Source: Tetradesmus obliquus
Lineage: Eukaryota; Chlorophyta; Chlorophyceae; Sphaeropleales; Scenedesmaceae
Direction of reading: 5' to 3'
DNA length: 64,000 nucleotides
Assembly (NCBI GenBank): GCA_030272155.1
Contig: CP126193.1
Span: forward strand, 7,750,001-7,814,000
The notes beneath the pieces were generated by a model, which was not told the DNA's origin, made no database searches, and saw only the letters and a program-made list of their open reading frames with translations. Below are positions 7,510 through 58,073 of the stretch, in pieces (the stretch's first letter is position 1; each line of letters starts with the position of its first letter). The position numbers and the translations under genes are program-made.

Positions 7510-7822
7510 CTACAGCGGCAGCGCTGTCTGCAGCGCCTGCAGGTTCTTTGCCTCTACAGCCTCTAGCAGCTCTACCTGCCCAGCACATGCCAAGCTAGTC
7601 CTCAAATAGCCCCACACATGCTGCGCCTCAGGGTTCATGCTGAGGGCTCGCACATAGTACGCTGCGCTGGCCATATAATCCCCGAGATTGGCATAGCTGA
7701 TGCCCATGTTGGTCCACGCGCGCATGTAGTTGGGCTTCAGGTCTAGGGCTTTGCGGTAGGCTGCCACAGCCTCGCTGCTGTGGCTGTAGTTGGCCAGCGT
7801 GGCACCCAGCTTGTTCCAAAGG

Positions 7823-7867
<45 letters not shown>

Positions 7868-10800
7868 AATGACAGCAGGGTGTTAGTATCGCAGCGCAGA
7901 ACCGGAAGGCGGCAGCTGCAATACACACAGTGATGAAACGGTGCTCTGCGTGCTGACCCAGCTTCACCCGCCGCACCCACCTGCAGTCGCCATTATGCTG
8001 GGCATGGCCGCATGACCAGGGCACTGGAGCTGCGACCCTGCACACCGCTGCGCAGCTGCTTCCAGTACCGCACCGACCTGCGGTCTCTAGGCCGCAGCTC
8101 CAGCGCGTGCTAGAATGCCGCGATGCAAGCCAGCTGAAGTATGCACGTGTGCAGGCACAGCTAACTGCATGCTGCTGCTACGTCATTTGATATGTGCAGG
8201 TAGAAACGCAGGCAACAACGCAGAAAACAGTGCATGAATACATGATCCGGATAGTCGTACGGGAGGCGTTGCGCAGGTGCTGCCAGTGCCACGCAATAGG
8301 CACCAGCCGCGCGACAGGCACCAACCACTGCATTGGCCTTGCATTGCACTTTGCATATGCCTTTGCTTGACACCAACTGTAACAAGCATTCTTATGCTTA
8401 CACCCTTAACCAACCGCCGCACCCACCCACCTATAGTCTCCAGGCCTTAGCTCCAGCGCGCGCTGAAACGCCGCGATCGCGCCATCATAGCGCCGATTCA
8501 AATGGTGCAGCACTCCCAGCGCCAGCTGCAGCTCAGTATCTTGAGGATGCGAGGCCACCACTTGCTCAAACAGGCGCACCGTGTGGCTCAGCGCCTGGCT
8601 GCTGTCTGGCGGCGGGCCTGCTGCTGCTGCTGCGTCGCGGTAGGTGGGATGGCCTGACAGCCAGCGGTGCAGGTAGCTGAGCGCTTCACCTGTGTGCAGC
8701 AGGTGCGGCAGATGAACGCGCATCCACAAGCAGCAACTGCATTAGGACCAAAACAAATAAACACAGCAACCTAAGTGAGCGATCCGCATCGAAGCGTCCA
8801 CTAGCGGCTGTCCTAGCTGTGCCCAGCATTACCTACGCCTGGCTGTAAGGCCAGCAGTCTACACTCTGCCAATCGCAACACAAAACAGGTTCCATAATAG
8901 CTGCAGCACCCGCGCCAACCAGCTCGCCGCACCTGCGTCCAGCTCGTTGGTGTGGCTGACCCCCAGCGCCAGCAGCACCTCCAAACTGTCAGGGCTGGCC
9001 TGCAGAGCCTTGTCCAGCGCAGCAATGGCCTGGCACGATTGAAAAACAGGGCAGGGACGGCCGCAGCAGGCCAACAACAGTTGGTAAAGAAGGTCAGAAC
9101 AAGAGCTGCAGCTGCAGCGCCTTGTCCAGCGCAGCAATGGCCTGGGGAAAAGGAGGGGTTGGGGAAGCAGCAGCGCATCAGGCAGGAGGTAAGGCATCAG
9201 ACACAGGAGCAAGCGCTACGGCTGCAGCCACAACAGCACATGCAGGACTTGCGACAGCAAATCCACAGCTGCTAGTTCACACAGTGGCAACCCATGCGAC
9301 CCGCACTGCGCGGGCGCGGCCAAGCAACTTCAGCAGCATGCTGACGTAAGCAGGTCTGGTTTCTGCTTGGCGCAGACATTGCAGCTTTGTTCTATGGTGC
9401 TCACTCTCCTTTTCTGGTCTCAGACCATGTGTTCAACCTGTTGTGGCTCATACCAACTAACTTGGATGGTGCCAGGACCCACATGTAACTATCCTCTCTC
9501 TAATTGCTGGCAGGAGCTGCAGCCGTGCCGGCGCTGCGCAGCATGCCGCACGCGCACCTGCCGATCGTCGTCGTTCTCTGCATGCACCGTTCCTAGCAGC
9601 CGCCATGCCGTGGCATTTTGCGGGTTGACCTGCACCTGCAGCAGCCAGAAATGCGGCGTGCACTGCGCGTCAGCATGCATGCACGCAAGGCATCATGCAG
9701 CATCGAAAGCACCATAGGCAGGTCAGCTGACAGCTCAACACATCAGCCAACAGCCAGGCGCGGAAGCATCGCGTGCTCACCTAGCACCATGCTGCTGGCA
9801 TTCACACGGCACAAGCATGCCAGGAGCACACGCATCGTTCCCCTGCATGCACCACAGGTGTGGTGCTAGGTCAGCTGCCAATCACCTGCTGTGCAGTATG
9901 GCAGTGCTGTGCTTGCAGGGCAGCGTACGTTGCAACATGGTGCGCAAATACACACCACCGCACACGTAAGGCTTGCCCGTCCAGCCACACCTGCAGAAGA
10001 GCTCCCTCAACCAGCAGCATGCATGCTGAACCTGCTGTACTCAGGGCACGCATACCTTCACAGCACAAGACAGCCCACGCAGACACGCCGCACGCACAGC
10101 ACAACACAAGCACCAGCACAACACAACAGCGCACTCACTTACATCTTTTCCACGGCATCGCTCACCTCTGCTTCCAGTGCCAGCGCTGCCTCGCTGAGCA
10201 GGCAGCGCTAAAACAAAACCCGGGCCTTGATTTGCACACCAGCCTGCACACACACCAGCAGCCCTGCCCCTCCGCACCTCTGCTTCTAGTGCCAGCGCTG
10301 CCTCGCTGAGCAGGCCGCGCTAAAACAAAACCCGGGCCTTGGTTTGCACACCAGCCTGCAAACACACCAGCAACCCTGCCCTGCCCTCCCCCACCTCTGC
10401 TTCCAGTGCCAGCGCTGCCTCACTGAGCAGGCCGCGCTTGAACAGGTCCCTGCCCTTCTCCAGCGCAGCAGGGTCCCCAAGGAAGGGGTTGTTAGCTGCA
10501 AATTGGTACTCGCCGCGCACGTGCTGCCCGGGTGCGGCCTGCAGGGCAGTTGTTTGCAGGCACACATGCGGAGGCGAGGAGTGAGAGGATAGTTACATGT
10601 GGGTCCTGGCACCATCCTAGACACACCCGAACGTGCCAAAACGTTGTGGCCCACGTGCTCCGCAGGTATGAGCCACAACAGGGTGAACACATGGTCTGAC
10701 GAGTGAGGCGTGAGGTGCGCATGCAGGTGAAGTGTGCATGCCTGCACAGCAACTTCCGGCACTGAGGAGGAATAACATCGGCTAATCATATCCACAGCAG

Positions 10801-12648: not shown

Positions 12649-12680
<32 letters not shown>

Positions 12681-14528
12681 GCGCAATGCCGCAGATCAGC
12701 ACGGCTCGATTCCGTAACAGCAGTGACTGATGCTGTGCAGTGTGAACGTCTCTAAGGCACTGCTCTGCTCATTGGGCAAGCGCCTACGGCACAGCAAAGC
12801 ACATAGCTGCCAGCCTACAACCTGAGCAGGTGCATCAGCATGTGGGCCCTGCAAACAGTATCCCAGCACCTGGACACACCATCAGCAGCAGCAGCAGCAC
12901 GTGTCGTTGCTCTCCACGCACGCACCTGCTGGTCTGCCACTGCCGCCCTGCGTCCGCGCCGTACATCTGCCGAGCCAGCACCAGCAGCAGCACACATCAC
13001 ACCAATTCTCTGCACGCACCCACCTGCTGGTCTGCCACTGCTGCCCCGGCGTCCGCGCCGTACATCTGCCGAGCCAGAATGGTGGCCCTATCGCGCAGCC
13101 GCACAGCGTCTGGCAGTGACAGCTGTGCGCCTGGCGGCAGCGCCTGCATCCCCGGCTGTGCGCCGCCAGCTAGGAACGCCTGCAACAGTCGGGGACGGCG
13201 AGAGGGCAAGAGTTAAGCCAGAGAGCCATCACACATGTGCGCACGATGTGCGGCGCTTGTGAGGACTGTGCATCGCAGCTGACAGCAACAGCAGCGGGTG
13301 CGGCATGTTGAGCAGCAACAAGCCGCCTCGAGCCGCGGCCACGCGCCGTCAGCTAGGAACGCCTGGTGGTTGAGCGGAAGGAGAGAGTATGGGAGTGTGT
13401 CAATGTGCAAGCTTGGAATAGTGACAGGGAGAGAGAGAGAGACAGCACACGAGCAGTGAAGATTCAAGGCAGAGCGTATGGAGGATGGCACGTGCAGTTT
13501 TGATGCGCGCGATTGTGCGTGTCATGGTGTGCGCGCTGTGTGTGTAGTGGTGGGCGCGCCTGAGCGAGTGCTAATGCGCGCCTGTGCGTCATTTGATGCG
13601 CGCGCATCACCGCACGCACAGGCAAAACACGCATGTGCATGTGTTAACGCGCGCAACTGTGCGCGCCGCTACGCATGTGGTGATGTGCGCACATGTGCAT
13701 GTGATGATGCAGGCATGTGTGCACGCATGTGTGCACGCATGTGTGTGCAGTGGTGCGCGCCCGTGCCTCTTTTGATGCGCGCGTCTGTGCGTGCGGTTGT
13801 GCATGTGGCAACGTTCGCGCAGGTGCGTGCAGTGACGCCCAAGCTGAGGCGTACGCGCGGTCATGCGCGCGCATGTGCATGCGGTGATGGTGGCAACCAC
13901 CACAGCTGCAAGCCAGTGGATCATGCTCAATGTCCCTCCGCTGCGCTTGCACCCCAAGCCGCTGATGCCGCCTGAAGTGCGCTACCCACATGACAACGCT
14001 ACAATTGCAGGTGCATTGCTACATATGCATTATATATGCGCCGCACCTTGAGCGTTGCTGCCAGCATGGGTGCGGGCGGCGGCCCTGGCATCAACGCCCC
14101 TGGCAGCATGTGACCCGGCGGCATCTGCGGCAGGCTCTGCGAGAGCACCAACCACCAGCAGCAGCAGTCACCAGGCTTGATATGTCAGGTGTTGGCTAAC
14201 ACACCTTAGTCAACGCACATCATTCGACAGCATCTGCGGCAGGCTCTGCGAGAGCACCAACCACCAGCAGCAGCAGCAGCCAGAAGAGTCACTGCAGGTG
14301 CTGTTGGCTGCGCTGTTGTGGTGCAACAGCTGTGGCGCCACGATGCGTGCTTGCAGGCCGCCTGCTCTGCCATGCTCCAGCATGCAACAGCTGCTGTCTC
14401 TGCTGCCGCTGCAGGTGCCGACAGAAGGCTTGCTGCCACAGCTTAACTGCTCTGGTCGCTGCCATCAAGCATTCGGCCTTGCCAGCCAATGCAGCTGCAG
14501 CAAAAGGTGCGCGTGCTGGTCCCCACAT

Positions 14529-14589
<61 letters not shown>

Positions 14590-16115: not shown

Positions 16116-16419
16116 ATGTCAGCAGCAGCAGCACAACCAGCAGCAGCACCAGCGCCGGGCCCTGCAGGGCAACTTGCAGACCCCATGGGAGCAGCAGCGG
16201 CAGCAGACTGGCCAGGCTCGGACAAGTTTGTAGCTGTGCAGGACCTACTAGACAGAAACGCGGTGCTCATCACCCAGATAAACGACAATCACAGCATACG
16301 GACGCCCGAGGCGCTTACTTGCAATGTACTGCTCATAAAGGAGCTCAACAGCAATGTGCAGAGAATAGTGGATTTGTACCACGACCTGGCGGATGTTCTC
16401 AGCTGCAGCAAGCAGCCGG

Positions 16420-16450
<31 letters not shown>

Positions 16451-17575: not shown

Positions 17576-17580
17576 TGTAA
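17576..17580 (+). terminator. Candidate TGTAA polyadenylation signal, ELF4-like gene
   Basis: TGTAA is the usual poly(A) signal of chlorophycean algae. This one lies about 1 kb after the stop codon, implying a long 3' UTR, so the assignment is tentative. Confidence 0.4.
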
Positions 17581-24300: not shown

Positions 24301-24409
24301 GGCAAACCCAGAGTCCATGTTCTCCAAGCTGGTGGACAAGTCGGGCCCTCAGGCAGCAGCAGCTCTGCGCCAGATGGCAGCAGACTTCTACGCATCCCGT
24401 CAGCAGTAA
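18337..24409 (+). CDS. ABCC (MRP-type) ABC transporter, copy B, complete
   Basis: Complete gene of 10 exons and 1282 residues: 18337-18620, 18716-18843, 19142-19562, 19875-20232, 20415-20693, 21063-21703, 21915-22112, 22397-22949, 23182-23449 and 23691-24409. Layout TMD1-NBD1-TMD2-NBD2 with no TMD0. NBD1: Walker A GRVGAGKS at residues 429-436, signature LSGGQ 519-523, Walker B ending LLD-N near 543, where the usual acidic residue is Asn. NBD2: Walker A GRTGSGKST 1059-1067, signature SLGQQ 1163-1167, Walker B LCLDE 1183-1187 with catalytic Glu, H-loop IAHRLDTV. So NBD1 looks degenerate and NBD2 hydrolytic, as in other ABCC proteins. It probably sits in the plasma membrane or vacuole membrane. 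Substrate unknown: glutathione conjugates and bicarbonate (HLA3) are both known for the subfamily. Starts MGGTNCPDAATSGFFNKLSF like copy A. Confidence 0.96.
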
Positions 24410-27789: not shown

Positions 27790-30529
27790 CTTCATCGCCA
27801 TCAAGAGCCATGGTGACAGCAGCAGCAGCTGCTCTGTCAGCTGCCGCGGCTGCTGTACTGCTGTGGCCAGCATCAGCTGCCATTGTGCCATTTGCAGCGC
27901 AGGCAGCAACAGCAAATCTGCCAGAAGCCATCACCAGCTGTCGTGGCTCTTCACACTCACGCACAGCTGGCTGCTGCTGCTGCTGCTGCTCAGCAGGTGG
28001 GAGGTCTGCAGCGTCGTTCCATCCAGCGGTATTTGCATGACCGCAGGCTGCCTCTCTCGCTGCTGCTGTTGCTGCTGGAGGCGAGTGCTGCTGCTGCAGC
28101 AGCTCCCACTGCTCCTCTGAGAGGTTGAGCTGCTCCAGGTCACCATCATCATACAGCAGGCTGTGCAGCTGCAGGCGGGCATCAAAAGCCTGCACAAATA
28201 ACAAATAACAAATAACAGCCGCGTTGACGCCAGGTCCACCAACAGCAGCCAGGCAGCGGCTAGTGTGAGAGCGCCGTGCAAGAGCGCAGGCGACTGCAGC
28301 AGCCTGATCGTCTAGCCATGGGGGTCTGGGGGGTCAGCAAGCACATGCAGTTTCAGCTGCAGCTGTGGGGCCTGGCAACTAGGTAACGTGTGTAGTGTGA
28401 GCGGTTGTGTTTGGTGCAGTGTGAGACATCTGGGGCAGCGGGCATCTGTAACCACCAGCCAATGCATCACTAGTGGCTCTGTGTAAGCTGACAACTGCTG
28501 TTTGAACTTGGTATGCAGTGGGGAAGGGGCTGCCATGCTCGCGCACTGCCACTGGTGCACTGCCTGTTCTGCTGCTTCTCATCAACACTGACACTACTTG
28601 CAAGTTGCAAACACATACTGTACTGCTGCATCAGCATCACCTGGATGGTGCCACAGTACCACTCCCGATCCAGCGGCCACCAAACCCTAGCCCTGCACCC
28701 CACCAGGTCAAAACCCTCAGGCCTATGCAGCAGGCTGCCGCCACAATGCTCAGCTGGCACACCAGGGTTTGGGCCAGCACTGAACCCTGAGCCTGACCTG
28801 TCAGGCCTAGCAGGTGACCGCTGCTGCTGCTGCTGCCAGCTGAGCTCCGACGCATAGTCAGGCTCCATCCTATGGCAGGCCGGCTGCTGCTGCTGCTGTT
28901 GATGCTCCCAGCTTAGGTCCTCCCAGGCGCTTGCACGCTGCTGCTGCTGCTGCTGGCTCAGCAGCGCGTAGCTGCCTGCTTGCATTCCAGCAGCGCCTGC
29001 ATGCTGGCTGCTGTGCTGGCTGTGCTGTGTCATCCGGCTGCCGTTGCTGCTGGTCCTGCCAACAACACCCTGGGCATCTGGCAGTGCCTGGATCGCCTCG
29101 TCAAGCAGCAAGTGCTGCCGGTTGTCCCAGAGAGGCGGCTGATGCTCAGGCTGCTGCCACCCATGCTGCTGCTGCTGCTGGTGGTGGTTGCGCTGCTGCC
29201 AGTGCTGCTCTCCATACTGCTGCTGCGGCTGCTCATGCTCTGCATACGCTGCTCCAGCATGCTCAGCAGCAGCTGCAGCAGCAGCATAGCCATAGCTGCC
29301 GCGCTGCCAACCCGCTGCCTCCGCTCCAGCAGCACCCATCCCACCACCGCTCACACCCACAGCCGCACCGCCAGGCAGCTGCCTCCCCAGCACGCCAGCT
29401 GCTGCAGCCGCAGCAGCAGACATGTGGCGCCCTGCAGCCCTGTTAGCCTCAATGGTGGCTTGCAGCTGCCGCTTCTTTGTCTTCTTAGTGAGTGCCGAGG
29501 GGTTGAGGATGACCAGGCCGTGTGCATTGAGCCAGGAGCCGATGTTGCGCCCAGTCTCAGCCACCTGCAGCAGCAGCAGCAGCAGCAGCGACGGCAGCGG
29601 GGGCATGAGCGCAGCACAATAGTGGGCCGAATTTATTTCCGCAGGCATGTGATGTGACGAGCCCCAGTGCTGCTGCTGCACACGCTTACGTCTTAGTCTT
29701 CCGGTTTCTGCCACCTGTAGCAGTGTTTGTTTGAAAGAGCAGCGGCAGAGCACCTAGCTTGCATGAATGCACGCGATGTGCAGCAGCAGTGCTGCAACCA
29801 GGCAAGGGTGCCTTGCGCATGTGCGTTGCAGCTGCAACTCCAGCAGTGATGTATTCGGCCCGACAGGATGCATGCAGCGCAGTGGCGGAATGTGTCCTTA
29901 TAAGCTACAATGAGCTGCGCAGCGCACCAGGAAGCTCTTCTTCCGCATCTTGAAGGAGCCGTAGCTGCCGTTGTATAGTAGCAGTACAAGATAGTTGTAC
30001 AGCCAGGTGTTTGCAGTAGCATGATCTGTCAACATGCACACGCGCAGCAGGCATTTACACACACCAGGATGCTCTTTTTCCACTTTTTGAAGGAGCCGCA
30101 GCCGCCGTGGCGCTCAAACTCGGTGGGCATCATCTCCACGCCACCGGGGCCCACACCCGCCACGCAGCCGGCACACAGGCAGGTGGCGCGCTGCCTGCAG
30201 GTGCAGGTGTGTATGCGGCAGGCAGTGTGGCGGTACATTTGGGCACAGAACAGATTCACGTGGGGTGCTCATGGAGGTGTCTAATGGCTGTGGAAGCAGA
30301 CTGAGACGTGACGCAGAGGTGACACTTCCTGCTGCTCAGAGCGCCAAGTAGGACCATCACTGACTGCTACTGCTAGGACCATTACTGACTGCTACTGCAT
30401 CCCACCTATCCAGCCAGCCACCCAGTCAGCCAGCTACTCATGTGCCTGCTCACCTTGCAATGTCGAAGACACCATGCGCTGAGCCGCAGCGCACTGCCAG
30501 CCGCATGTATGCTGCTGGGTTGTCACCCG

Positions 30530-33463: not shown

Positions 33464-35635
33464 TCACTGCTCCTGCTCGTATGTATCACTGCCTATCGAA
33501 TCATCTGACAAGTTCAAATCCACACTCTCCTCTTCATCCTCGTCCTCCTGCAGGCCTTGCTGCAGCTGCTCCTGCTGCACACCAGCTGCTGCACTTCCTG
33601 CTGCACCTGCCACACCTGCTGCTGCTGCACCTGCTGCATTCCCTCCTTCCTGCAAGCTGGCCTTGCCTGCCATGTCAGCGCGCAGCTTTGCCATCTCCTT
33701 TTCCCGCCGCTTCTGCTCCAGCCCCTCCTTGCGCTGCTGCTTTGCCTGCAGCTCAGGCACGTAGAACTGCTGGTACTCCTGCGCACACTCGCCCAGTGCC
33801 TGCAGGAGCAGCGACAGCAGCAACACAGCATTGTGTTAGAACAGTACACGCAAATGCGATCGCACCTTGCATATTGCACGATGTAACACAAAAAAAAAAC
33901 GCACCGGGTGCAGTGACCTGGCCAGGCGGCCAGCCAGCCCGCACTATGAACAGCTCATTCATGCCTTCGCTGGTCAGCGCCGACTACGCGTGCCATCATA
34001 CAACTTCGTTCGACTACTTCCATCTGCTTCACATGCTGAAAAACTCTGAAGACACCATGTTAACAACTGGCAGCCCGCACCGTTCACGGATCTAACGAAC
34101 GACAACCCGCACCTTAAAAAGCTCATCCATCCCTTCTCCGGTCAGAGCCGACAGCCCCACGCAGCGCATGCCATCATACAACTGGCAGCCCGCACATTTG
34201 ACAGATGTAGAAGAATGACTGACCGCACCTTAAACAGCTCATCCATGCCTTCTCCAGTCAGCGCCGACAGCCCCACGCAGCGCATGCCGTCATAAAACTC
34301 CTCCAGCACCAGGCTCAGGCTGCGGCTGAGTGTTGCTGCGTAGCTCGCGTCTGCTTCCAAGGCAGCAGAGTAGGCCTCAAAGTCTGCCATCCACTCGAGC
34401 GCAAACTCGTGGCGCGACACATCCACCTTGTTGAAGGCCTACGCGTGTCAGCAGACAGCAGAGCAGACAGCATACCACAGCAGACAGACTTGGAGCATGC
34501 GTGTGGGGTGTTGCATGTGTGAGAATGGTGCAAATGGACATGCATGCTACTATTGGCAAGCTGTGTGTTGGGGCGTGCACAACAATGTGTTGCGCTCACA
34601 GGTACAGGCGTGTGATTGACTGTTCAGCGTGTGCTGGGGCCACAACAATACACCAGACAACGGAAATGTTGAAAGCACTCACTGCCTGGCACTCAGCGCA
34701 TAGTCTACCACCTGCGCCACTGCACAATCATACCAGTACATGGGCAATGCAGTACACAAGTGTAGCCGCCCTCCCAAAGCTGTCACAGACTGAAACCAGC
34801 CTTGCCTCTTGTGTCAGCCTGTTGCAGCGTCATCCTGTTACTAACAGGTTTAGTACACACCAGCCCCCACAGCTCACCAGCAGCATGGGCAGCTTGGTCT
34901 TGTACAAGATGCTGACCGCCTGCAGCATGTTGCTCATGAAGGTCTGCGGTGCTGTGCAGCGCGGCGTGTCGATGACGTACATCACCACAGTGGGGATGCT
35001 GCTGGCAAACAGGTCTACACGACAGCAGCAGCAGCAGCAGCGGCGGCCCAGACACAGTAAGGTGGTGCATAACGTGTCCTTAGCTGTGTACGCAGCACAT
35101 CTTAAGAGCTGCCTCTGTGTGCTCGCTGTCCAGGACTTGCTGAGGCGGTGTTGAAACCAAGCTGGTTGCTGCACTACAGCCACACGGAGGGATGCACAGA
35201 CTTCAGGGACACAATGAGGCGCCGCAACCTCTCATCCCATCACCTCTCACACCTGCCATTGCTCCGGCAGCATCACCCCAACGACTATGCACTCCATGCA
35301 CAAACACGCCCTCCCCACGGCTATGCACTCCATGCACAAACACACCCTCCCCACGGCTATGCACTCCATGCACAAACACACCCTCCCCACGGCTATGCAC
35401 TCCATGCACAAACACGCCCTCCCCACGGCTATGCACTCCATGCACAAACACACCCTCCCCACGGCTATGCACTCCATGCACAAACACGCCCTCTCCCTAT
35501 TCTTGAACCCGCGCGTCTCACCTGTGACCAGCTGCCCGCTGGCGCTCCATGTGAAGATCTCGATCTGCCCGGGTGTGTCTGCAAACACGTACTGCAGCGG
35601 AGGATCGCGCGGCTTCTCCACCAGCTGGATCACCT

Positions 35636-41813: not shown

Positions 41814-44800
41814 CTAGGCAAAGCGGTCGAGCCGCACAGTGATTGTCCTGCCCTCGTACTCTGTGTTGTTCAGCTTCGTGCAGGCTGCATCTGCATCCTC
41901 CTTGCTGCTGAAGCGCACAGTGCCAAAGCCCCTGCAGCAGCACATTGGCAGGTGGCAGGTGATGCGGGGCAGGGCAGAGCACAGCTTCAGCAGAGTTGCT
42001 GTGGCGCCAATGCAGTGGCGAGCCTCGTTCCTGCAAGTTCTACAGAGGTCTCCGTACTGCACCAGCTGCCATGCTGTGTTACTTGGCCCGAAATGCCGCA
42101 TCCCACGACTAAGAGGCCCTTCCTCTAAAGTGGGCACGGTATCTATTGACCTGCCGCAAATTCACAGCTGGTGCTGCCGTGCGCTGCTGCAGACGTCGCC
42201 CCAGCCGTGTTGCCATCGCACTGGTCTGACCTGAAATGCGCCATGCAGCTGCACGCCTGCCCCAAATCCAGCCTCACTCCAAACACACAATCAGCATCTG
42301 CAGCTGCCATGATGCTATGTTTGACCAGCAGCTGCTGTCACATGCTGTGCTAGACTGCCTTGCACGCAGCACTCGGTCCACACCAATCAACCAAACTGCA
42401 GCCCCTGACAGCAGGTCAAACTTGGCGTATGACAGCTGCAGCAAGAGCAGCTCTCATATACCAAGTTTGACCAGCTGTCACAGGCTACGTTTGAACTGAA
42501 GCCCCTGACAGCAGGTCAAACTTGGTGTATGATAGCTGCAGCAAGAGCAGCTCTCATATACCAAGTGTAACCAGCTGTCACAGGCTACGTTTGACCAGCA
42601 GCTGCCCGTCCCACATCTTGCCACGCACCTGCTCTTGCCCCAGCTGTCATACACCATGTTTGACCAGCTGTCACGCGCTATGTTGGACCAGCTGTCATAC
42701 ACTACTATGTACAGCTGCCACACATTGTGTTTCACCAGCAGGTGCCCATCCCACACCCTGCCGCACCTGCTCTTGCTCCAGCTGTCATACACCATGTTTG
42801 ACCAGCTGTCACACGCTACGTTTGACCAGCTGCCGCACACTGTGTTTGACCAGCAGGTGCTCATCCCACACCCTGCCGCACCTGCTCTTGCCCCAGCTGT
42901 CGTACACTACATCTGCACGCTCCACCTTCCACTCCTTGAACGCATCCTTCAGCTGCTGCCATGTGGTGGTCCATGGTAGGTTGTGCACCACCACCTGCGC
43001 ACACAACAAGTGCAGCGATTGGCGGCACGGAGACAGGGCAGGGCAAAAGGATGCAGCAAGGTTGGAGGACAAATCCAGGACAGGAAGGGGTGTAGTGGAT
43101 GAGGCTGGCCTTTCTGCTGCTCTGAATGGGATTTGCAGGACAGGTTTTCCTGCTTCCGCTGCCCAGTTTCTTGCTGGTGCCCCTTAAAGAATCAATTGCA
43201 TCTCCCTACTGCAGGCTGCAGTGGCTTCTTGCCTTAGTTGCCAGTGGAACAATCATGCCTGCCCATGTTGCTGTGTCTGGCATTGCCCAGCAATGCCAAG
43301 TAGGGCACGGCACCAGCCAGCGCAGCTGCTGCTGCTCCTGCTGTCTCCCGTACTGCAGCAACTCAACTGCTCATTGCACTGGCACAACTGTGCGCCAGGC
43401 CGCTGCAGGGAACGCCATGCAGCAACATCACGCATCAAGGGCGACTGCCACCGGCATCACCTCACTGCTGTCATCAGCAGCACTGTGCTGAAGGAAACTG
43501 CATAGCTGCCGCCCAGCTGCCACTAAGCTGCTCTGCAGTGAAGCAGCACTGCTCAGCCTGCAAACACAGCTGCAATTGCGGCTGTCCGCCTGCATCATTC
43601 TCAAAGCTGGCTGCTCACGCCACGTCTGTCCCTGCTGTTGCAGCTGCTGCTTTGACTGTCTGCCTGACATCTACTTGGCTCTGCAAGTGCTGCCTGCACC
43701 TGCTGCTGCTGCTGCTGCAATCTGGCGGTGCCATCTCAGCTGGCATGTTGCTGCTGCTGCATCTGCTGCCACACCCAACAGCACAGGTTCTCCAGTGCTG
43801 CTACTGACAAAACCCGCCCGCCCTCATGCCCAGCCACAAAGCAGCAGCTGCTCGGCTGCCATCAGCAGCAACTGCTGTTACCTCAACAGCCATATGATTA
43901 TCACCTGCAGCCCGCTGCTGTCGCCCGCCTGGCCGCCTGGCAGCCCCTGCATGTAGCCGCCAGCCCGGCCGCCGGGGAAGCGCCCTCCCCGGCCCCGGCC
44001 GCCGCGCCCGCCGCCGCGCATGCCGTACATGCCGCGCGGCGGGTAGCCGTACGCAGCATAGCCGCCATATGCGCCGTAGTAGTCGTATGCGCCATAGCCG
44101 TAGCCATAGGCCATGGGCATTGGCGCGCCCCGGCCGCGGCCGTTGCCTCTGTAGGCGCCGGCTACACCACCGGCTACTACGCCGCCTGCTGCTCCACTGC
44201 GGAAGGAGCTGCGCCGAGGAGCACCCTGTAGGTTGGCGGGTTGGTGTTGGGTCGCAGGTGACGGGCAGCAGCAGCAGCAGCAGCAGACACAGGCACGTGA
44301 CGTTGGTATGATATTAAATGCACGGTGCAAGGATACTACTAGGCTGTATCCACAGTGCACTGCTGCAAAAGGTTATGTGCTAGCACTGCGCAAGCCGCAT
44401 TTCTGTGCGTACAGTCTGTGGTGATGTGCCAGGAGCACTGCTGCTGTGAGCTGCTGCTGCTGCTGCCAAAAGATATGCAATAGCTGCTCAACAGCCAAGC
44501 ACACGCAGAGCACTTGCAGCAGGCAGACACTACATGCAGTTGCAAGCAGCTGCAAAGATCTCCAGCTGCGCTGCTTGCCATGAAACACTATTGTGGGTTT
44601 GGCTGCTGCTGCAGCTGCTGCTCCTGCTGCTGCAGCTGCTGCTCGTGCTGCTCCCAAAAGAGATGCTGTCGTCTGCTGCACCTGCTGTGGCATGCAGCAG
44701 TGACTGACGAGCAACACTGGCACTTGCTGACTGGTAGCCATTTGAGACACCTGCACTGCGCAGCTGATACTGATATGTACAGCCGCATGTGTCGCTGCGG

Positions 44801-45620: not shown

Positions 45621-46935
45621 GGCGCTGCTGCCCGGCGTTACAGGGAGGAACAGGCTCCGGGAGCAGAGCTTGAGGGCACAGCAGAGCTCAGTTCCACCGC
45701 GTCTGCAGCGCTGGCTATGCTCAGAGGCTGCAGATCCGTATGACACATGTAACACCCAGAAAAATTCCGATCAGGCGCGGCTCATCGATCAGATCGTGAG
45801 CTTCAAGAGCGTCCATTCTTTTTAGATTCAAAGTTTAAAGCCTGATTGGCCTGCGTTTGCCTTGAAATCTAAAGTGAAGTTACCCAGTGACAATGTTCAC
45901 AGTGAGCAGAGCTGAGGCTGTACGCCTGGCACGACTGCAGCTTACATGATCAATTCAAAGATCTTGAACAACTAGTCGCTGACAACAAAGACAACATGCT
46001 CATCATACGTGAACAAACCAGCAATTCGCGCGCAGTGCTCCGCATGCAGCAGTCAAGGGGCCAGTGAGCCTGCTACATCCAGCATGTTGCATGCTATGAT
46101 GCTCAGAAAGCAAACAAACACGTGGCAGCTGTGCTGTGCCCCTTGCCCTGCAACACTGCTCTGTCCTGCCTGTGCCCCAGCATTGCTGCCTGACCATGGA
46201 GATGTGCATACTTTCACACTGCTGATGACTTGACCACCAACCCAGTGGAGGTTGCACCATGCATGATGTTGTCACACATGATGCAGCAGTCTGCCTTGCA
46301 CAAAGTAAGAATGGCATGCGCATCACAAGCAGTGCACTGCCACAGCACAGTTTATGTTTAACACGTGGCCGTGCAGCAGACGATGCGCAACATGCAAGGC
46401 TGCTGACGTGCATGCAATGCTTGCACAGACACACTATGGCGCATGTAAAACACCAGAGCAACATTCACTCCGCAAGCGCTGCAGCAGCTATGCTGCCGGC
46501 AGCGTGCGCAGCAAGGCGCAGCCTGCTGCAGCCAGACCTGGCCGCTTTGTTTGGAGGGCGCTCGCGCTGCTGTCCATGGACAGCACTGGCCAGTGCCACC
46601 AGCACACCATGATGTCATGGTGTGACTGATGAGTGGGTGGTGGTGTACGCTGCGTGCCAGCTGGCCTCTGCATGCCCTGACTGCTGCCCAGAACAGTCTA
46701 CCCGCTCTGACCTGCCGGCACTTATTCGTCGCCCACCAGGCGGAAGAGCCCCAGCACCTCCAGCAGCTGCAACCCGTGGCCATGTCAATCAGCAGCCGCC
46801 ATGTTTGCTGTTGGTTTTCAATTACTCGCTGCCCACCAGCCCAAACAGCCCCAGCACCTCCAGCAGCTGCTAGCCTGGACTATGCCAAGCAGCAGCTCGC
46901 CCATGTACTCGTTGCCCACCAACTCTGCACCCCGC
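45621..46935. other. NAB1 promoter and RMD1-like gene 3' flank
   Basis: Both genes are on the minus strand. No exon recognised except two extra, apparently untranslated copies of the RMD1-like C-terminal coding segment (46730-46870). A minus-strand TGTAA lies near 45943. Confidence 0.5.
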
Positions 46936-46983
46936 CTACTCGTTGCCCACCAGCCCGAACAGCCCCAGCACCTCCAGCAGCCC
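46730..46983 (-). repeat. Three tandem copies of the RMD1-like last-exon tail
   Basis: The segment encoding LLEVLGLFGLVG plus stop (genuine, 46936-46983) recurs at about 46826-46868 and 46730-46770 in the presumed 3' UTR, with both copies still readable as LLEVLGLF and a following stop. Confidence 0.85.
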
Positions 46984-49900
46984 CACCACCACCTCCACCA
47001 TGATGAGGTAGATCACGATCCACTCCAGCCGCGCGCTGTGGTGGTTGTTCTGGTGGTCGCGCAGCATGTCCAGCATCTCCTGCAGCACCTGCGGCATGAG
47101 TCAAGCATGTTGGTAAAATGCTTGGTGATTGCATGTCTGCAGATGAAGAGGTGTCCAGCATCTCCTGCAGCACCTGCGGCAGCAGCAGCATGCAGCAGGC
47201 TGACAACCGTCAGACAGATGCAGAGGTGTGCAGCATCTCCTGCAGCACCTGCAGGCGGCATCAACCAAGCATGCAGCAGCCCGACAGCAATCAGGCAATT
47301 GCCTGCCTGCAAAGGTGTTGTCAAAGGCAGCGCTGCATGCGGCTGCACGCTGACTCACCGCGAAGCGCGCGTTGAGCACCTCTACATTGTCAGGCAGGTC
47401 AGGTATTAACACTCGGCATCCGTTCCGACGCTGCATGCAACTCACCGCGAAGCGCGCGTTGAGCACCTCTACACTGTCAGGCAGGTCAGCTGTTCAAACT
47501 CCGCATCCGTCCCAACGCTGCACGCTGACTCACCGCGAAGCGCGCGTTGAGCACCTCCACGCGCTGCTCCAGCTCCAGGTACTCGCAAATGCGCTCGTAC
47601 AGCGCCTGGAAGGAGTCCGGGGCCCGCCAGAAGAACTCCGGCGTGTCCAGCACGCTGCTCAGCAGGTTGACGGCCGCCTTCTGGATGAACACCTGCCAAC
47701 ACGTGTGAAGGTGCAGCAGATTCAGCAGTGAGGCGACAGGCATAGCAGTTGCACCAGGGCGGCACGCTGCTCAGCAGGTTGACGGCCGCCTTTTGAATGA
47801 ACACCTGAAAAGGTGCGTGTGTATAACAAGCACAGCAATGAGGCAATACTTGGATATGACTGTTGAACAGGTGCACCAGGGCGGCACGCTGCTCAGCAGG
47901 TTCACGCCCGCCTTCTGGATGAACACCTGCCAACATGTGGTGTACAAACAAACACAGCAATGAGGCAAACTTCAATTTGTTGAACAGGCACACCACACGC
48001 TGCTGCGCTGCTGCTGCGACACACAGTGTACATTGCAGCCACCTGCTGTCACACCTGCCTGCCGCCCCACCTGGCTGATGAGGTTGGCGGTGATGCTGCT
48101 GCTGCTGCTAAAGAAAAATCTCCTGCTATACTACCTTCTGCTCCATCACCCACCTTGCTGATGAGCCAAGCTGGATGGCCTCTGGCGACAGCGCTACCTT
48201 GCCGGATGCTGCTGCTGCTGCAACAACACACATTCTACACCGCAGCCACTGCTGCCGCCTCACCTTGCCGATGAGCTTGGCGATCGTCTCCGGCGACAGC
48301 GCCACCTTGCCGGATGCCGCCAGGCTCTCAGGCAAGTGCTTTGTCTCCACCACCATCGCGCTCACGCGCCGCTCGTGCAGCGAGAGCTTCGTAGACTGCG
48401 CCAGCGCGTAGCTAATGGCCAGCTTCACCTGCAGAGATTCAAATTTAAATCGAACAACAGGTGCTGAACAATGTACGGCGACAGGCATCCAGTGTGTAGG
48501 CGTGTGAGCAGCCAAGGTGCCAGCGGACAGCTGATGGTAAGCTTCACCTGCAGTCACGAAACGGCACGGCGAACACGTCTGAGCAAACACGTGTCGGCGG
48601 TGTGGGTGTGCCAGCGTGTAGCTGTGATGGCAAGCTTAACCTGCAGTCACGGAACGGCACGGCAAACACATCTGAGCAAACACATGTTGGCAGTGTGGGT
48701 CTGGTGGCAGGCTTCACCTGCAAGAGTGCGGCAACAGGCATATGCAAGTATGTGTATGTGTGATGCACGAGCAGCAGAAGTGCGCCAGTGCGTAGGCCTC
48801 AGAGTGACAGCCCGAGCTGAGCTGCTTGCAGCTTCCTATTTTACCAGATGTCTGTGGTGGCGTGTGCCGCATGAACACACCGTGTAACCCCTCTATCTCT
48901 ATCTATCTAGTGCGTAGCTGAAGGTCAGCTTCACCTGCAATGCGGAGTGCGGGGTAACAATGGTTGCTGCGGGGCTACCACGGGTGCTGGTATAATGTCA
49001 TCCTGTGCAGGCCGAGCTGACCAATGCTAGGTGTGTAGAGCACGTGACAGCAAGAGTGCTGAGCACCAAGCTTACGCGCGGTGCTGGCTTGACGTGCAGC
49101 ACAACGCAAGAGCCCTTTCATGCAAGCCCCTTGAGCGTGCCATGAGGAGTAAAGCAGCGGCAGCTGTGCTCTGTGGAACAAGGGAACCCGCACCCAAACC
49201 TCGGACCCACCTGGTGGTCCTTGGCTGCCTTCTTGTGAAGTGTGACGGTGTCATTTTGGATGTGTGGCTTCTCCAAGGAGCTGTAGTTGAACTCAAACTG
49301 GCAGGCGTGGCAAACATGAAAGTGCGCGCGCGAGACAGGGACAGCACAAGGTAAGCAGTGAAGCTGGGAAGACCAACCCCAGGCAGGAAGCATGTAGCTG
49401 ATCTCAGACCGTCAGGCGATGGCGCTGGTGAGGCACTGGCAACACGGGTGCACGTGCTGTGTGTTCTTGCAGCAAGCCGGCACAACAATGTAACCTGCTG
49501 CTGCTGCTGCTGCTGCTGCTGCAGCCCTCCAAATCAGCCTACCTGGTCCACCTCCAGTTCTTCACTGTCCACAGGCTGGTTAGCTGCCTGGTGCGCGATC
49601 GTGCGCATCACGGCAGCCTCCTGCAGGCACAGCCAGCCAGCAGCAGCAGCAGCAGCAGCACGTGAGTGGCCGCACAGCCGCAGCACTGCAGCCCATGCCG
49701 CCAGCCAGCCTGCGCGTATGATATAGCTGATCCGATCACAGCACATTCTGGCATGCAAGCTCCCACACCAGCGACACCCACAAGCACGCTACAAACATCT
49801 GCATGGCAACGCACCAGGGCTGCAGCAACCATGTAATAACCGCACCTGCGCACTGTCCAGGCCCCAGCATGCCACTACGCCATAGTCAAAGAAGAAAAGG

Positions 49901-53045: not shown

Positions 53046-55366
53046 ATGATGCCGGCGCACCAGCGGTGCTTCAGCAGCAGCAGCGCCCAGGCCAGCAGCA
53101 ATGCTGGCGGCAGCGATGCCGGCAGTGGCAGCGGCGGTGCTGCTGGCGGGGCAGACGCGCTGCAAGTGAGTGCTGTTGACGCTGCTGAAACAGCAACAAC
53201 TCACTGCAGCTGTTCAAGCCTCGTGCTTGGTTTCACGGGTACCTGCACCCGTAGTTGCCAGCCTGCATGCGTGCTCATTGCAGCCATGCGCACAGTATCG
53301 ATTTGCAGCGCTCCCTGTTTGGCGCCTGACAAGTCTGCCTCACATGGCTCACATGGCTGGTGCCTCCCGCAGGCATCCATGGACAAGCTTGTGGACACAG
53401 CAGTGAGGCTGGTGAAGCAATCCCTGTGCTGCATGTCATATTGCTGTGCCTGATGTCTGCTGCATGCCTGCCGGCCACCTGCTTGTTGCTTTTCTTGTTT
53501 TCAGGCCTCCATGGACAAGCTTGTGGACACTGCAGTGGCCCTAGTGGAGGAGAACCGGCTGCAGCAGGCCACGCAGGTGCTGCAGCAGGGCATAGAGCTG
53601 CTGGCCAGCACCTTCCCTGACAGGTGAGGTTACTAGAAGTGTTGTCATGGACACAGCAGGGGTGTAGTTTGCAGGTTTGGCAGCTGTTGCTGCAGCATTG
53701 CAGCATAGAGCTGCTGGCCAGCACCTTCCCTGACAGGTGCACTCTCTCCAAGACCACTACAAGTGTAGCCACAGGCACAGCAGGGGCACCGTTGTGTAGT
53801 CTGCAAGTTTGGCAGCTGTTGCGGCAGCAGGACAGCATAGAGCTGTTGGCCAGCACCTTCGCTGACAGGTGCGCATTTGCTGTGAGAGGTGACGGCAACC
53901 TTCTCAAAGGACCCGGCAAGGGCGGGGTTGTGTAGTCTGCATGTTCGGCAGCAGGGCATAGAGCTGCTGTCCAGCACCTTCCCTGTCAGGTGCGCACACA
54001 GGTAGAGGGGTTGAGGGGTTGAAGAACATTCCAGTGAAAGGTGTGCATGGCTATGTTTAGTTCGGGGATTAGTTTGATGCATGGAACAAGACGACTGTCT
54101 GCAGTGAATGCATGGTTGCCACCTTCAAGCACAGCTGGACCAGGAGACCCCCGTGTACAGCACAGCAGCAGTCCTGCAGTACGATCACAGCAGGAGTGCG
54201 CATGGCCGCCGCTGCTGCAGCAGGAAAAGCAGCTTGTCTATCGTGGAGATTTACCAGCCCTTGCGGGCGCCGCTGTAGTTTGTGGCTGGCAGCAAAGCAC
54301 TGGAGCTGCTGCATTGGCGTGCGAGCCAATGCTGTGCAGCACGCAATGGCTGCGTGAGTGTGGTTGCTGCTCTATCTGCCCCTGTTTGTCCCTACCCCTG
54401 CAGCAGCATTCTTGCTTCTGCCCAGTGTGCTGTGGCTGCTATCCCTCTGGCACTCCTGCCACTGCTTGACTTGCACAGTCTGATGTGAACACTGCTGAAT
54501 GCACTGCCTGTAGGCCTGAGCTGAGTGAGCTGCACAACCAGGCTGCGCTGCTGCTGCTGTTTGGGGGCCAGCACGAGGAGGCCGCAAAGCATGCGCAGCA
54601 GGCATTGGAGATCACGCAGAGATTCTTTGGCCCTGCACACCCACTGACAGGGCACAGGCTGCTGCGGCTGGGCACAATCAGGTGCGTTACAGGCGCCTTG
54701 TTATATGCAGTGCATGCATTGCCTTGCATTTGAGATTGAGCAGCTGAATGTAGATGTGTTGCCTGGGCGGGATGCGCCACATGCTGCAAGCTGTTATCCA
54801 AAGAAGCCCAAATCAGCTGCAGGCACCAGCAATGCTACCCCAGGCACGGTCAACACACATGATGACCAGCAGTTTGACTGTGAACACACCGGCGTGTCTA
54901 AGCAGCTGCATGCAACTGCACTGCTGCTGCTGCACTGCTGCTGCTGCTGCTGCTGCCTGCTTGCCTGCCTGCGCTGGCTGCAGGGTGGCTGCTGGGCAGT
55001 TGCAGGAGGCACAGCCGCTGCTGGCGGCAGCAACAGACATGCTCTCAAAGCAAGCTGAGGTGGGCATGTTTGCAGCTTGCAGCTTTCATTGCATGTATGT
55101 GTTACACTACGTGTGAGCATCTCTGAAAGTTGTAGCTGCTTGGATCACAGGCATTGCTTAGAAAGCTGCAGCTTGCTGGTTCGTGGTGGCGTAAGTGCCT
55201 GCAACAACGCGCATGCTGTATGGTCAGTGCGCAAGTGTCCCAACTCCTTTCACACCAGCGATCGCTGCAACGCAACGCGTGTATAGTCGTTGCGTGTGCA
55301 AGCCACAATGAACAAGTGTTTGGCGCATCAACCACACCACAGGCCAATGCACCAAACACACACAAC

Positions 55367-55403
<37 letters not shown>

Positions 55404-58008
55404 AGGACCCGAGCCTTTCAGAGGGCCTGTTCTACCTGCACGTGCTGGCTGTGGCTGCTGCTGACAGCCCGCAGGAGGTGGCAGCATCAACTGCGGGCAT
55501 GCAGGACTCATTCAAGCACATGCTGGCCACGCTGGGTGAGGCACAGCTGCAGCAGCAGCTGTGCTAAACTGTTCTATAACACGTTAAAGCGTCAACGGGC
55601 TTCACATCTGTCTCTGTTGTGTTGTTGTGCTGTGCTGTGCTGTGCTGGGCTGGGCCAAACTGTGCTGTGTTGCTGTACTACAGCAGTATACAAAGACAGC
55701 CCCGTGCTAGTCGGGGCTGCATGTCACCCTTGTGTCGGCTTGCTCACTGGCTTGTCAGCCGTCTGTTGTCTTGCATCACAATCATACTTTGAAAGCGCTT
55801 TGCACTGGGTTCTCTGCAGCGCATGTCTGCGCCATTGTGCGAGTCACATCACAGCCAACTCTGCTTGCCGCCCGTGCAGCTCAGGCAGAAGCCATACACT
55901 GCTCTGTGCAGGCAATTTGCCATTGCCATAGCTTTGTTATACTTAACCCACCCGGTTTACCTAACCTACTCGGTTTACCCCGGCCGCACCGAGCATGTCT
56001 TTGCCTTTGCGCAGGTGCCGAGAGCATGATTGTGCGCCTTGCCCTGGCTGCGCACAGCAAGCAGGTCGGCGTGGCACTGGATGGCAGCCTGGCCCTGGGG
56101 GAGGCGGCATTCAAGCAGCACATCAGCCTGCAGGTGAGGTTGTAGCAGCACATGAATTCGTCCTTTTACATCATCCTGCAGGTCAGGCTATAGCAGCACA
56201 ACAGATTCGTCCTTGACATCAGCCTTTTACACCAGCCTGGCCCTTGGGGAGCCGGGTTTCAAGCAGCACATAAGCCTGCAGGTGCGGCTGTAGCAGCTGT
56301 GGTAGAGCGTTCGTGTGGCAGCTATAGGCTCGACTGCTCCTGCAGTCTCTTGGAGCCGCTCTCTGCTGCCTGGAAAGCAGCATGTGCAGCCACATGTTTG
56401 CGGCAGAGCCTGTCAAACAATTTGCTGACATCCGCCTCTGCTGCACAGCTCCTGCACCGCTGCTGCTGCTGCTGCTGCTGCTGCTGCAGGAGCTGCAGGA
56501 CGCAGGCAGTGCTGCTGCAGGGGAAGCAGCGCTTGCAGTACATCATCGTTTGCGGCAGGTTCTGTCAACAAATTCAACATCTGCGTGTGCTCTGCTGCAC
56601 TGCTGCTGCTGCTGCTGCTGCAGGAGCTGCAGGATGTAGGCAGTGCTGAGCTGGGCCTCACACTGTACCAGCTGGCCACCACATACTACGCACATGACAT
56701 GCTGCAGGATGCCGGGCCAGCGCTGCAGCGAGGCTCAGCGCTGCTGCGCGCACACTACCCGGCAGAGCACGACCTGGTGGGTGTGCTGCTTTTTATTTGA
56801 AGACTAAACCGACTGGCTATCACTGCTCACAACACAGTTCAACTCCTTGTTTGCTGAAAGAACGTTACAACTTGAGCAGAGCACGACCTGGTGGGTTTGC
56901 TGCTGCGCCTGGGTGAGGCGCCAGGGTGCGGCACCTGGGTGCGGCGCGGATCACAGTCGCGGCCAGCTGCTGTAGTGCCTGCATGTCCTATGCTTGTCAT
57001 GCAGGCACTGCCTGTGCAGCTTGGGTGGGCTGCTGCCTTGCCTGCATAATGTATATAAAGAGTCACAGCATGCATGCAGGTCAGACATTACAAGGAAGCA
57101 TAATGCAACATAGTGAGTACTCACATGGCTAGAGATGGGGTCCCCCGGCACCATGGCTGCTTGAACCTATGTGCTTGAGCACCCGACACAGTTGCTGATG
57201 CATGAATGTTTGCGCCGCTGATTTCGCTGTGGCTTGCAGGTGCAGCTGTGCAAGCACCGGCTAGGGATGGTGTGTGCTGCAGGGCGCGACTACCGCTCAG
57301 CCACGCTGCTGCTGGGAGAGACACTGCAGCACTACCGGCAGCAGCAGCAGGGCCACCCGCTGGCACATGAGGCAGAGCTGGGGCTGGCCATGGCAAGGTG
57401 AGGAGCCGCTGCTTTGACTTTGACTTTGACTTTGACTTTGACCGCAGGCTGGGTGACTGACGCATGTGTTACAGTGGCTCGCTACTGCCACTGAGCGCCG
57501 TGCAGCCTACCAGGGCTGCGGTGTATGTGGTGCATTGCAGCACGTTTGATCTGGACTGGTGGTTGCATGAATCAATGAGCTACGCGTGGTGTGTTAAAAC
57601 TCGCCACCCGCGTAAGTTAACGAGGGTGTGTGTGTGACGATGAGGGTACCCCATGCGCCTTCATACCTCCTACCATGGTGGTTGCACAGCTTGCTGTTCA
57701 GCAAGCACTGTGGGTGTGGCGGCGGAAGGTGGATGATCGGAGGGTGTTCTGCTGGTCGGAGCCAGATGGCACAATGCCCTTGCACGCTGTGCTTGCTGCT
57801 GTCGCTGTGCAGGGTGAAGGGCCTGGATCCACGCATGCCCAAGGCAGACAGGGATGCAGCAGTGGGAGAGGCGCTGCAGCAGATGCGCGCCGCGCTTGCA
57901 GGCATGGCCACAGCGCTGGGAGCAGAGCACCTGCTGGTGATTGGCGGCAGCCGCTACCTTGCGCAGTTGGCAGTGATGACGGGGCATGCGGCACCGCAGG
58001 GCAGCTGA
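53046..58008 (+). CDS. TPR-repeat protein, possibly mitochondrial
   Basis: Nine exons with intact phase: 53046-53165, 53505-53623, 54514-54681, 54984-55059, 55406-55535, 56015-56133, 56624-56776, 57240-57397 and 57813-58008; about 412 residues from the ATG at 53046. TPR-like helices of the kinesin-light-chain style are visible: LHNQAALLLLFGGQHEEAAK, AQQALEITQRFFGPAHPLTG, LYQLATTYYAHDMLQDAGPA, YRSATLLLGETLQHYRQQQQ. The first exon encodes PAHQRCFSSSSAQ, similar to a mitochondrial cleavage-site region. The open frame extends upstream to 52773 without an ATG, so a 5' exon may be missing. No specific family recognised; likely a scaffold protein. Confidence 0.82.
53373..53992 (+). repeat. Copies of TPR-gene exon 2 borders
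   Basis: The acceptor and start of exon 2 (ASMDKLVDTAV; genuine 53505) also occur at 53373-53425. The exon end plus donor (GIELLASTFPD, genuine end 53623) recurs at about 53703-53741, 53832-53869 and 53954-53992. Confidence 0.9.
55367..55405 (+). repeat. CTG tract at TPR-gene exon 5 acceptor
   Basis: About 12 CTG units ending in the acceptor CAG of exon 5 (first base 55406). Confidence 0.9.
56160..56292 (+). repeat. Copies of TPR-gene exon 6 end in intron 6
   Basis: Exon 6 end plus donor (genuine end 56133) recurs at about 56233-56292 (LALGE-like, FKQHISLQ) and as a shorter copy near 56172-56200. Confidence 0.8.
56461..56910 (+). repeat. Copies of TPR-gene exon 7 borders
   Basis: A CTG tract, acceptor and ELQDAGSA codons at about 56461-56515 duplicate the genuine exon 7 start (56624). 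Exon 7 end (AEHDL plus donor) recurs at about 56876-56910. Confidence 0.85.
57045..57165 (+). repeat. Dispersed repeat family 2, copy b (TPR intron 7)
   Basis: Matches 40240-40350 over about 115 bases, starting TGTATATAAAGAGTCACA and ending near CCATGGCTGCTT. Confidence 0.7.
57410..57442 (+). repeat. TTTGAC hexanucleotide microsatellite
   Basis: About five tandem TTTGAC units, 13 bases after the exon 8 donor of the TPR gene. Confidence 0.9.
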
Positions 58009-58073
58009 GGAAAGGGTACGTTGCGCAGCTGGCAGTGGTGACGGGGCATGCGCCACCGCAGGGCAGCTGAGCG
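57959..58073 (+). repeat. Tandem duplication of the TPR-gene C-terminal segment
   Basis: About 50 bases including the stop codon (57959-58008; LAQLAVMTGHAAPQGS) are repeated at 58019-58070 after the stop. Confidence 0.92.

Follow-up and report, generated by a model that had tools for sequence, protein, structure and literature searches.

Genes and border copies in the window

We analyzed a stretch of 64,000 nucleotides (nt) from the green alga Tetradesmus obliquus (GenBank assembly GCA_030272155.1, contig CP126193.1, positions 7,750,001 to 7,814,000; here called the window, with coordinates counted from its first letter), in which the genes for PEX5, a SAND-domain protein, GPN1, NAB1, an RMD1/DUF155 protein, and a TPR protein carry copies of their own exon borders close to the originals. 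Together with 25 loci of 10 kb (20 at first) on contigs 1 to 13, the window formed a sample of 314 kb from a genome of 104.66 Mb in 17 contigs. In this sample, about 1 in 8 intron ends has a decayed copy of itself, consisting of the exon edge and the splice signal, about 119 bases into the intron.

Gene models were made from sequence only, using a small purpose-written gene finder that was self-trained on the window and the loci; the training was filtered, since unfiltered training drifted into CTG repeats. The window, with a guanine-plus-cytosine content of 0.55 to 0.61 in 4-kb steps, yielded models of the six genes, as well as of three genes that we take to be ABCC-type transporters (positions 1-6141, 18337-24409, and 60062-63943) and of what is presumably a CPBP-like protease. 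Pfam found the expected domains in the six tested gene products, ARID excepted: the scanned piece of 322 amino acids of the SAND-domain gene gave SAND (E 1e-4) and no ARID. Comparison with the PDB, made for PEX5 and GPN1, was in agreement with both models. The TPR part of PEX5 matched PEX5 structures over nearly its full length, with one model-called copy left out, and the GPN1 border beside the copies was supported by alignment to GPN-loop GTPase 1 (chain 9t5j_B). Besides, the NAB1 border beside the copies was supported by a complete Pfam RRM after the exons had been joined by hand, and RMD1 borders 48264 and 47692 were supported by a complete Pfam DUF155. A first-pass annotation of the window had listed border copies in all six genes (the second under the name ARID-SAND gene), and we confirmed this for each of them, as follows.

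8071..8124, minus strand, copy of the PEX5 8431 donor border (79.6%, offset 353)
8424..8477, minus strand, real PEX5 donor border, exon end 8431
9000..9033, minus strand, real PEX5 acceptor border, exon start 9029
9112..9145, minus strand, copy of the PEX5 9029 acceptor border (97%, offset 112)
10163..10228, minus strand, second copy of the PEX5 donor border at about 10395 (86%)
10275..10340, minus strand, nearest copy of the same border (period 112)
10392..10457, minus strand, real PEX5 donor border, exon end at about 10395, as inferred from the protein
12910..12978, minus strand, copy of the PEX5 13024 donor border (92.9%, offset 98)
13008..13077, minus strand, real PEX5 donor border, exon end 13024 plus donor
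14121..14167, minus strand, real PEX5 acceptor, exon start plus intron end (source copy)
14230..14276, minus strand, copy of the PEX5 14136 acceptor border in the upstream intron (100% over 47 bp, offset 109)
29925..29971, minus strand, copy of the SAND-domain gene 30065 donor border, the single border with a copy in this gene (85%, offset 137)
30062..30108, minus strand, real donor border of the SAND-domain gene, exon end 30065
33939..33984, minus strand, second copy of the GPN1 donor border (85%)
34063..34183, minus strand, first copy of the GPN1 donor border plus part of the intron (86%, offset 115)
34178..34299, minus strand, real GPN1 donor border, exon end 34229 (protein aligned to GPN-loop GTPase 1)
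42394..42907, minus strand, NAB1 row of copies of the exon end ...DSWGKSR plus donor, at one donor (real end at about 42881, inferred from the model exon; the RRM is complete when joined there)
46719..46981, minus strand, copies around the last modelled exons of the RMD1/DUF155 gene (period about 100)
47067..47560, minus strand, donor-border array of the RMD1 gene (period about 87)
47650..47705, minus strand, real acceptor border of the RMD1 gene, exon start 47692
47762..48004, minus strand, two further copies of the RMD1 47692 acceptor border (offsets 112 and 234)
48092..48212, minus strand, copy of the RMD1 48264 donor border (74% over 123 bp)
48205..48320, minus strand, real donor border of the RMD1 gene, exon end 48264
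53370..53405, plus strand, copy of the TPR 53505 acceptor border (94%, offset 132; the gene finder models it as an exon)
53502..53537, plus strand, real acceptor border of the TPR gene, exon start 53505
53578..53626, plus strand, real donor border of the TPR gene, exon end 53623
53688..53996, plus strand, three copies of the TPR 53623 donor border, at about 113, 245, and 366 bp
56085..56149, plus strand, real donor border of the TPR gene, exon end 56133
56233..56297, plus strand, copy of the TPR 56133 donor border (89%, offset 148)
56484..56514, plus strand, copy of the 56624 acceptor border (94% over 31 bp)
56762..56790, plus strand, real donor border of the TPR gene, exon end 56780
56876..56904, plus strand, copy of the TPR 56780 donor border (97%, offset 114; no similarity detected in the spacer)

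PEX5 has copies at five borders and a weak one at border 13179 (81% over 42 bp), GPN1 has two copies of one border, several copies lie in the RMD1 gene, and the TPR gene has copies at five borders. These per-gene counts are approximate, because the gene finder calls some copies exons (PEX5 10166-10207, TPR 53373-53411, RMD1 47359-47430, and NAB1 42629-42795) and shifts one PEX5 exon end, which its last version placed at 10368 and for which the protein argues for about 10395.

Other repeats were seen in and near the same genes. A PEX5 intron contains inverted repeats at 10883-11116 (88 to 89%), and a 36-bp unit occurs six times in a GPN1 intron (35277-35496; 96% alike). A PEX5 intron segment at 9367-9499 resembles 37714-37844, between GPN1 and the protease gene, in a 138-bp alignment (81%), with inverted pieces at 10580-10699, and this similarity is perhaps that of a small dispersed element.

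Abundance of border copies in the genome sample

Comparison of the window with itself revealed many local direct repeats, mostly with offsets of about 85 to 150 bp, and blastn on all sequence of the 314-kb sample detected 119 local direct-repeat arrays, versus none in one order-2 Markov resampling. When the exon end and splice signal of each modelled intron border were sought in the adjoining intron, a query that is exon weighted, 114 border copies were found at 82 of 688 borders, whereas the same 688 queries gave a single match in foreign introns of equal total length; an earlier count based on blastn had given copies at 75 of 708 borders. The window (25 copies, at 20/160 borders) is typical of the genome sample in this respect, since copies occurred at 62 of 528 borders in the 25 other loci and at 48 of 490 without the richest locus. 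The copies are thus not tied to one gene family and reach well beyond the window, in accordance with the first-pass annotation. That richest locus, L025, has leucine-rich-repeat-like models, named from a sequence pattern, at positions 1079-9545, with copies at 14 of 38 borders. Copies were over-dispersed among 69 genes (P = 0.006) and were present in 24 of the 52 genes with at least six borders. None of the 25 border copies of the window lies in the three ABCC-type genes.

A scan with 66-mers that was blind to borders detected a copy no more than 260 bp away for 17.7% of border 66-mers (160/902), 7.7% of exon-interior ones (109/1,422), 13.0% of those in pure intron, and 5.7% of intergenic ones, and the corresponding far-window controls were 0.9, 1.6, 0.2, and 1.8%. 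Copies are accordingly commoner at borders than inside exons, contrary to the outcome that the first-pass annotation named as refuting its proposal, although this difference would also follow from the purging of frame-breaking exon duplications. Two arrays, one of them the TPR array at 53688..53996, were searched against the whole genome and matched only their own locus (the search skips very common words), and a dispersed element or introner was rejected on the ground that both are single-locus.

Spacing and shape of the arrays

Junction-to-junction distances peaked at 110 to 129 bp, with secondary clusters at about 240 and 355 bp; the typical start-to-start distance is about 119 bp, and rows stand at multiples of that offset. 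Offsets fell between 80 and 160 bp in 59 of the 83 arrays that touch an exon, 8 of the 19 confined to introns, and 13 of the 17 between genes. Some arrays are clean, young tandem duplications (L004, positions 5967-6281, period 115 bp, 98%; L008, positions 8250-8682, 216 bp, 100%), while others keep just the exon part (about 20 to 75 nt) and the splice signal, followed by a spacer of no recognizable relation. For a test of the spacers, we used the 63 of the 114 copies with a distance of 75 to 170 and the junction at most 8 nt from the alignment; 5 were too short, leaving 58 pairs. Spacer similarity was recognizable in 32 of these, which look like decayed tandem duplications, and undetectable in 26, so that duplication of a whole adjacent unit is visible in part of the set. 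The first-pass description of decayed border copies next to their originals therefore stands, with the correction of a typical start-to-start distance near 119 bp and of spacer similarity in the former group.

A row judged by eye lies in L022 (positions 300-2300), in what we take from a motif to be an RNA-polymerase-like gene, where one exon end plus donor occurs about eight times. In L025, also by eye, the spacer between two border copies (6415-6484) holds telomere-like TTTAGGG-type letters, which may be chance.

Position of the copies relative to exon borders

Since the unit is 119 bp and introns are about 300 bp, most intron duplications overlap an exon. Geometry was tested on 59 of the 119 arrays (26 others have a copy outside the gene models, and 34 are not assignable to a single intron): 46 of these 59 events touch a border, compared with 40.7 ± 3.0 expected from geometry alone. 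A process targeted to borders, as implied by the first-pass annotation, is thus largely unnecessary within introns. Per kilobase, arrays with an offset of 80 to 160 bp numbered 0.70 at borders (51 arrays), 0.18 in pure intron (8), and 0.11 in intergenic DNA (13), omitting 8 exon-exon and gene-edge arrays, and border arrays were 3.9 times as frequent per available position as intron-only arrays (confidence interval [CI], 1.9 to 8.2). Slower decay beside a conserved exon partner is expected to account for up to a factor of 2 of this excess.

Exon-exon pairs had an offset divisible by 3 in 7 of 8 cases, including all 4 inside a single exon, which implies that duplications hit exons too and that the frame-breaking ones are lost. 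The preference for borders is mostly the footprint of selection and geometry. One coding exon, in L015 (3837-4110), contains an in-frame tandem duplication of 120 bp that forms a 40-residue repeat.

Divergence of the exon part and the spacer

Identity between exon and copy is about 0.90 across the exon part and collapses just past the splice signal, being 0.49 at +7 to +12 in 59 donor copies and 0.54 at -12 to -7 in 46 acceptor copies (ungapped). Third-position identity was 0.844 in the 26 pairs with an unrecognizable spacer and 0.853 in the 32 with a recognizable one, whereas identity over the six intron positions 7 to 12 from the junction was 0.36 and 0.68, respectively. Among 23 borders with at least two copies, the nearest copy was the more similar in 10 and the farthest in 10, with 3 ties. 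Because identity is equal regardless of the state of the spacer and the place in the row, the exon-derived part does not age with the spacer. Such similarity, independent of age and distance, is what concerted evolution by gene conversion predicts, and constraint on the copies would look alike. Besides, pairs with offsets of 80 to 160 bp that align over less than 70% of the offset made up 23 of 52 border-intron pairs versus 4 of 22 intron-only and intergenic pairs, a modest difference (P = 0.04).

The copies show no clear sign of being coding. Of 499 differences between exon and copy, 248 (50%) fell at codon position 3, a share close to that of a neutral copy beside an exon that changes silently; among changes private to the copy, 58 of 141 did so (41%, compared with 33% if neutral; P = 0.06).

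The ABCC-type paralogs served as a calibration of intron divergence against that of silent sites. Their four-fold sites differ by 0.21 to 0.29, and their ungapped intron identity is 0.17 to 0.31 at +7 to +12 after donors, which is chance identity, and 0.35 to 0.50 at -12 to -7 before acceptors; the calibration is weak, because exon conversion among these neighbors is possible. An ABCC-type intron (61471-61790) holds a 53-bp unit six times, which had no match to the other two paralogs in the window self-comparison.

Proposed duplication and homogenization by the intact exon

We lean, with some reserve, toward an explanation that combines frequent small tandem duplications with continued homogenization of the exon-derived part by the intact exon. 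It starts from what was observed: the abundance and period of the copies, the frame rule, the border share, the absence of strong coding constraint, the decoupling of exon part and spacer, and the locus specificity of two arrays. The genome would undergo frequent tandem duplications of about 85 to 150 bp (mode, about 119) in introns, exon borders, exons, and intergenic DNA, probably arising by the fill-in of staggered breaks. Inside exons, mainly in-frame duplications would survive, and in introns of about 300 bp, most would cross a splice junction and be tolerated, presumably because the outer, original splice site is kept and the extra exon piece and splice signal remain in the intron. With each further event, a row at multiples of 119 bp could grow, and the intron with it. 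The copies would then lose coding constraint and the spacer would diverge to noise, while the exon-derived part may be kept about 90% exon-like by recurrent gene conversion from the intact exon or by slipped-strand templating on it, since a template free of insertions and deletions (indels) would be left on the exon side only. Homogenization is favored here because it needs no function and explains both the tie to exons and the absent codon bias. The general interpretation of the first-pass annotation is in this way upheld for the spread of the copies and for the enlargement of introns, and not for the making of introns or for border targeting.

Several points weigh against duplication with homogenization. 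Conversion itself is what we infer, constraint on the copies would give an equally star-like, age-independent similarity, and 40 to 60 bp is short for classical gene conversion. A neutral one-clock simulation with blastn detection predicts a spacer identity of about 0.9 at exon identities of at least 0.95, whereas 7 donor-side pairs average 0.62 to 0.65, and a simple neutral clock was rejected for this reason. Low coverage was also seen in 3 of the 4 exon-exon pairs and in all 5 gene-edge pairs, small groups outside the comparison of border-intron pairs given above. Relative to intergenic arrays, border arrays are 6.4 times (CI, 3.5 to 11.8) as frequent per position, an excess too large to come from slower decay alone; the remaining border excess is real relative to intergenic DNA and within error relative to pure intron. 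Offsets of exon-touching arrays are somewhat larger than those of the rest (medians, 128, 116, and 108; Kolmogorov-Smirnov [KS] P = 0.03). The exon share of the unit, measured in 42 of the 63 spacer-test copies, is not uniform (mean 55, standard deviation 18; 14% above 75 nt), whereas uniform placement simulated through the same gene finder gave a mean of 71 with 46% above 75 nt (KS P = 1e-4 versus observed); a junction near the middle of the unit could reflect the selective loss of copies that encroach on the branch site or come too close to the real donor, or a junction-centered process. Near-copy distances were divisible by 3 in 12 of 63 cases, compared with 30.5% expected after gene-finder bias (P = 0.03), which would fit an occasional use of decoys, and in a high-identity subset (19 pairs with exon identity of at least 0.95), 20 of 26 differences were at codon position 3. 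Selection against in-frame offsets was set aside, since the deficit was gone once arrays with model-called exon copies were counted (28 divisible offsets in all 86 exon-touching arrays), and coding constraint on the copies was likewise set aside, since the signal of the subset was lost in the larger set of 499 differences. Finally, the gene models are computed from the DNA letters, the sample is 0.3% of the genome, and there is one assembly.

Alternative explanations

It seems to us fairly unlikely that the exon-end copies persist under selection for a role as decoy splice sites, which would bind the splicing machinery and tune retention or choice of the real site, with the exon-like part maintained for the enhancers it contains. 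Identity does fall over a few letters where the splice consensus ends, from 0.88 at +5 to 0.59 at +6 and 0.49 at +7 in donors and from 0.96 at -3 to 0.70 at -5 and 0.52 at -7 in acceptors, and all eight L022 occurrences, modelled ends included, keep CAG|GTGCG (by eye). GT is present at 52 of 65 copied junctions, but its identity in donor copies (108/118, 0.915) is no higher than that of the exon-like part (0.90). AG, present at 43 of 49, is slightly better kept (88/92, 0.957) than the exon part (0.88 to 0.90), although it sits at alignment ends that are biased toward matches, and on the whole the splice letters in the copies decay about like the remainder. The shortage of near copies at distances divisible by 3 would fit such selection, whereas its absence from the 86 arrays, the almost even spread of copy-private changes over codon positions, and the 28 of 52 genes with at least six borders and no copy do not. 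We judge it quite unlikely that copying would stop at the splice junction and place just the exon end and its splice signal at a distance of about 119 bp, separated by filler of other origin, so that the spacer would never have been duplicate. The 26 pairs without spacer similarity and the nonrandom exon share are in line with such copying; however, between pairs lacking and pairs showing spacer similarity, the mean distance is the same (120 and 119 bp) and the exon share almost so (47 and 50 nt), which is what a single kind of event would leave at different ages, and we are aware of no mechanism by which splice sites would be read on DNA.

That ordinary tandem duplications simply decay, with the contrast between exon and spacer being an artefact of finding copies by their exon part, we regard as improbable. 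The queries for border copies were indeed weighted toward exons, and real exons change mostly at silent sites, so that exon parts should decay about half as fast, but a simulation with blastn detection and two indel rates fails to reproduce the contrast, and the blastn arrays, free of exon weighting, show the same class of low coverage. An artefact of assembly or gene models deserves hardly any credence: the self-made models do call some copies exons, yet most copies differ from their originals by substitutions and small gaps, and known proteins or domains bear out the exons of PEX5, GPN1, NAB1, and RMD1. A bolder explanation, unlikely though not to be neglected, is that a junction-centered process duplicates about 55 nt of exon and 65 nt of intron and keeps the half with exon and splice signal matched, which would make maintained rows of decoys about 119 bp apart at 1 in 8 intron ends that may tune splicing.

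Intron growth and known systems

Introns with arrays are longer (median, 378 bp; n = 92) than those without (median, 284 bp; n = 262; P = 0.004), which fits the first-pass proposal that copies enlarge introns, though longer introns also offer arrays more room. Rows of putative decoy splice sites, proposed at the same time, exist as sequence. Introners, which are dispersed families, are similar in that many algal introns are affected genome-wide, and different in that the two arrays tested here match their own locus only.

Intron gain by tandem genomic duplication is reviewed in PMC3443670, and potato RdRp is a reported case of it (PMC4974935). The likeness to the reviewed process is that an AG|GT-bearing duplication doubles the splice signals; the difference is that existing introns gain sequence and decoys here, with no new intron seen. 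In that model, the duplicated exon supplies the new acceptor with its second AG, and the exon-end copy must therefore abut the far splice site. Among the still-recognizable copies, 0 of 114 had the copied junction within 3 nt of the far splice site, and intron birth by tandem duplication, the intron-making model of the first-pass annotation, was rejected as unsupported.

The accessible text of PMC8355091, whose reference 14 is Vaughn and Bennetzen 2014, describes small tandem duplications from staggered-break repair as adjacent, direct, and mostly less than 100 bp, in human and mouse cells and in plants. Our arrays likewise include direct adjacent duplications, but they differ from those described there in the mode of about 119 bp, the very high density, and the exon-anchored copies that do not age with their spacers. 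In Chlamydomonas and Volvox, according to the accessible portion of PMC3887541, repeat density is highest in introns and repeats are more numerous near intron-exon junctions. These green algae thus resemble T. obliquus in intron- and junction-rich repeats, whereas the repeats that this portion describes are micro- and minisatellites and GT/AC motifs within introns, rather than copies with an exon part. Among the listed titles and abstract openings of open-licence papers, we found no report of exon-border copies in algal introns.

The copies also carry a warning for annotation, as they resemble exons flanked by good splice sites, and several were taken for coding sequence even by a gene finder that had been trained on the genome. 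If the density holds, the genome shows intron growth in progress, with border copies of many ages in one assembly, in which the rate and size rule of small tandem duplication, the decay of decoy sites, and the correction by exons of their own copies would be measurable.

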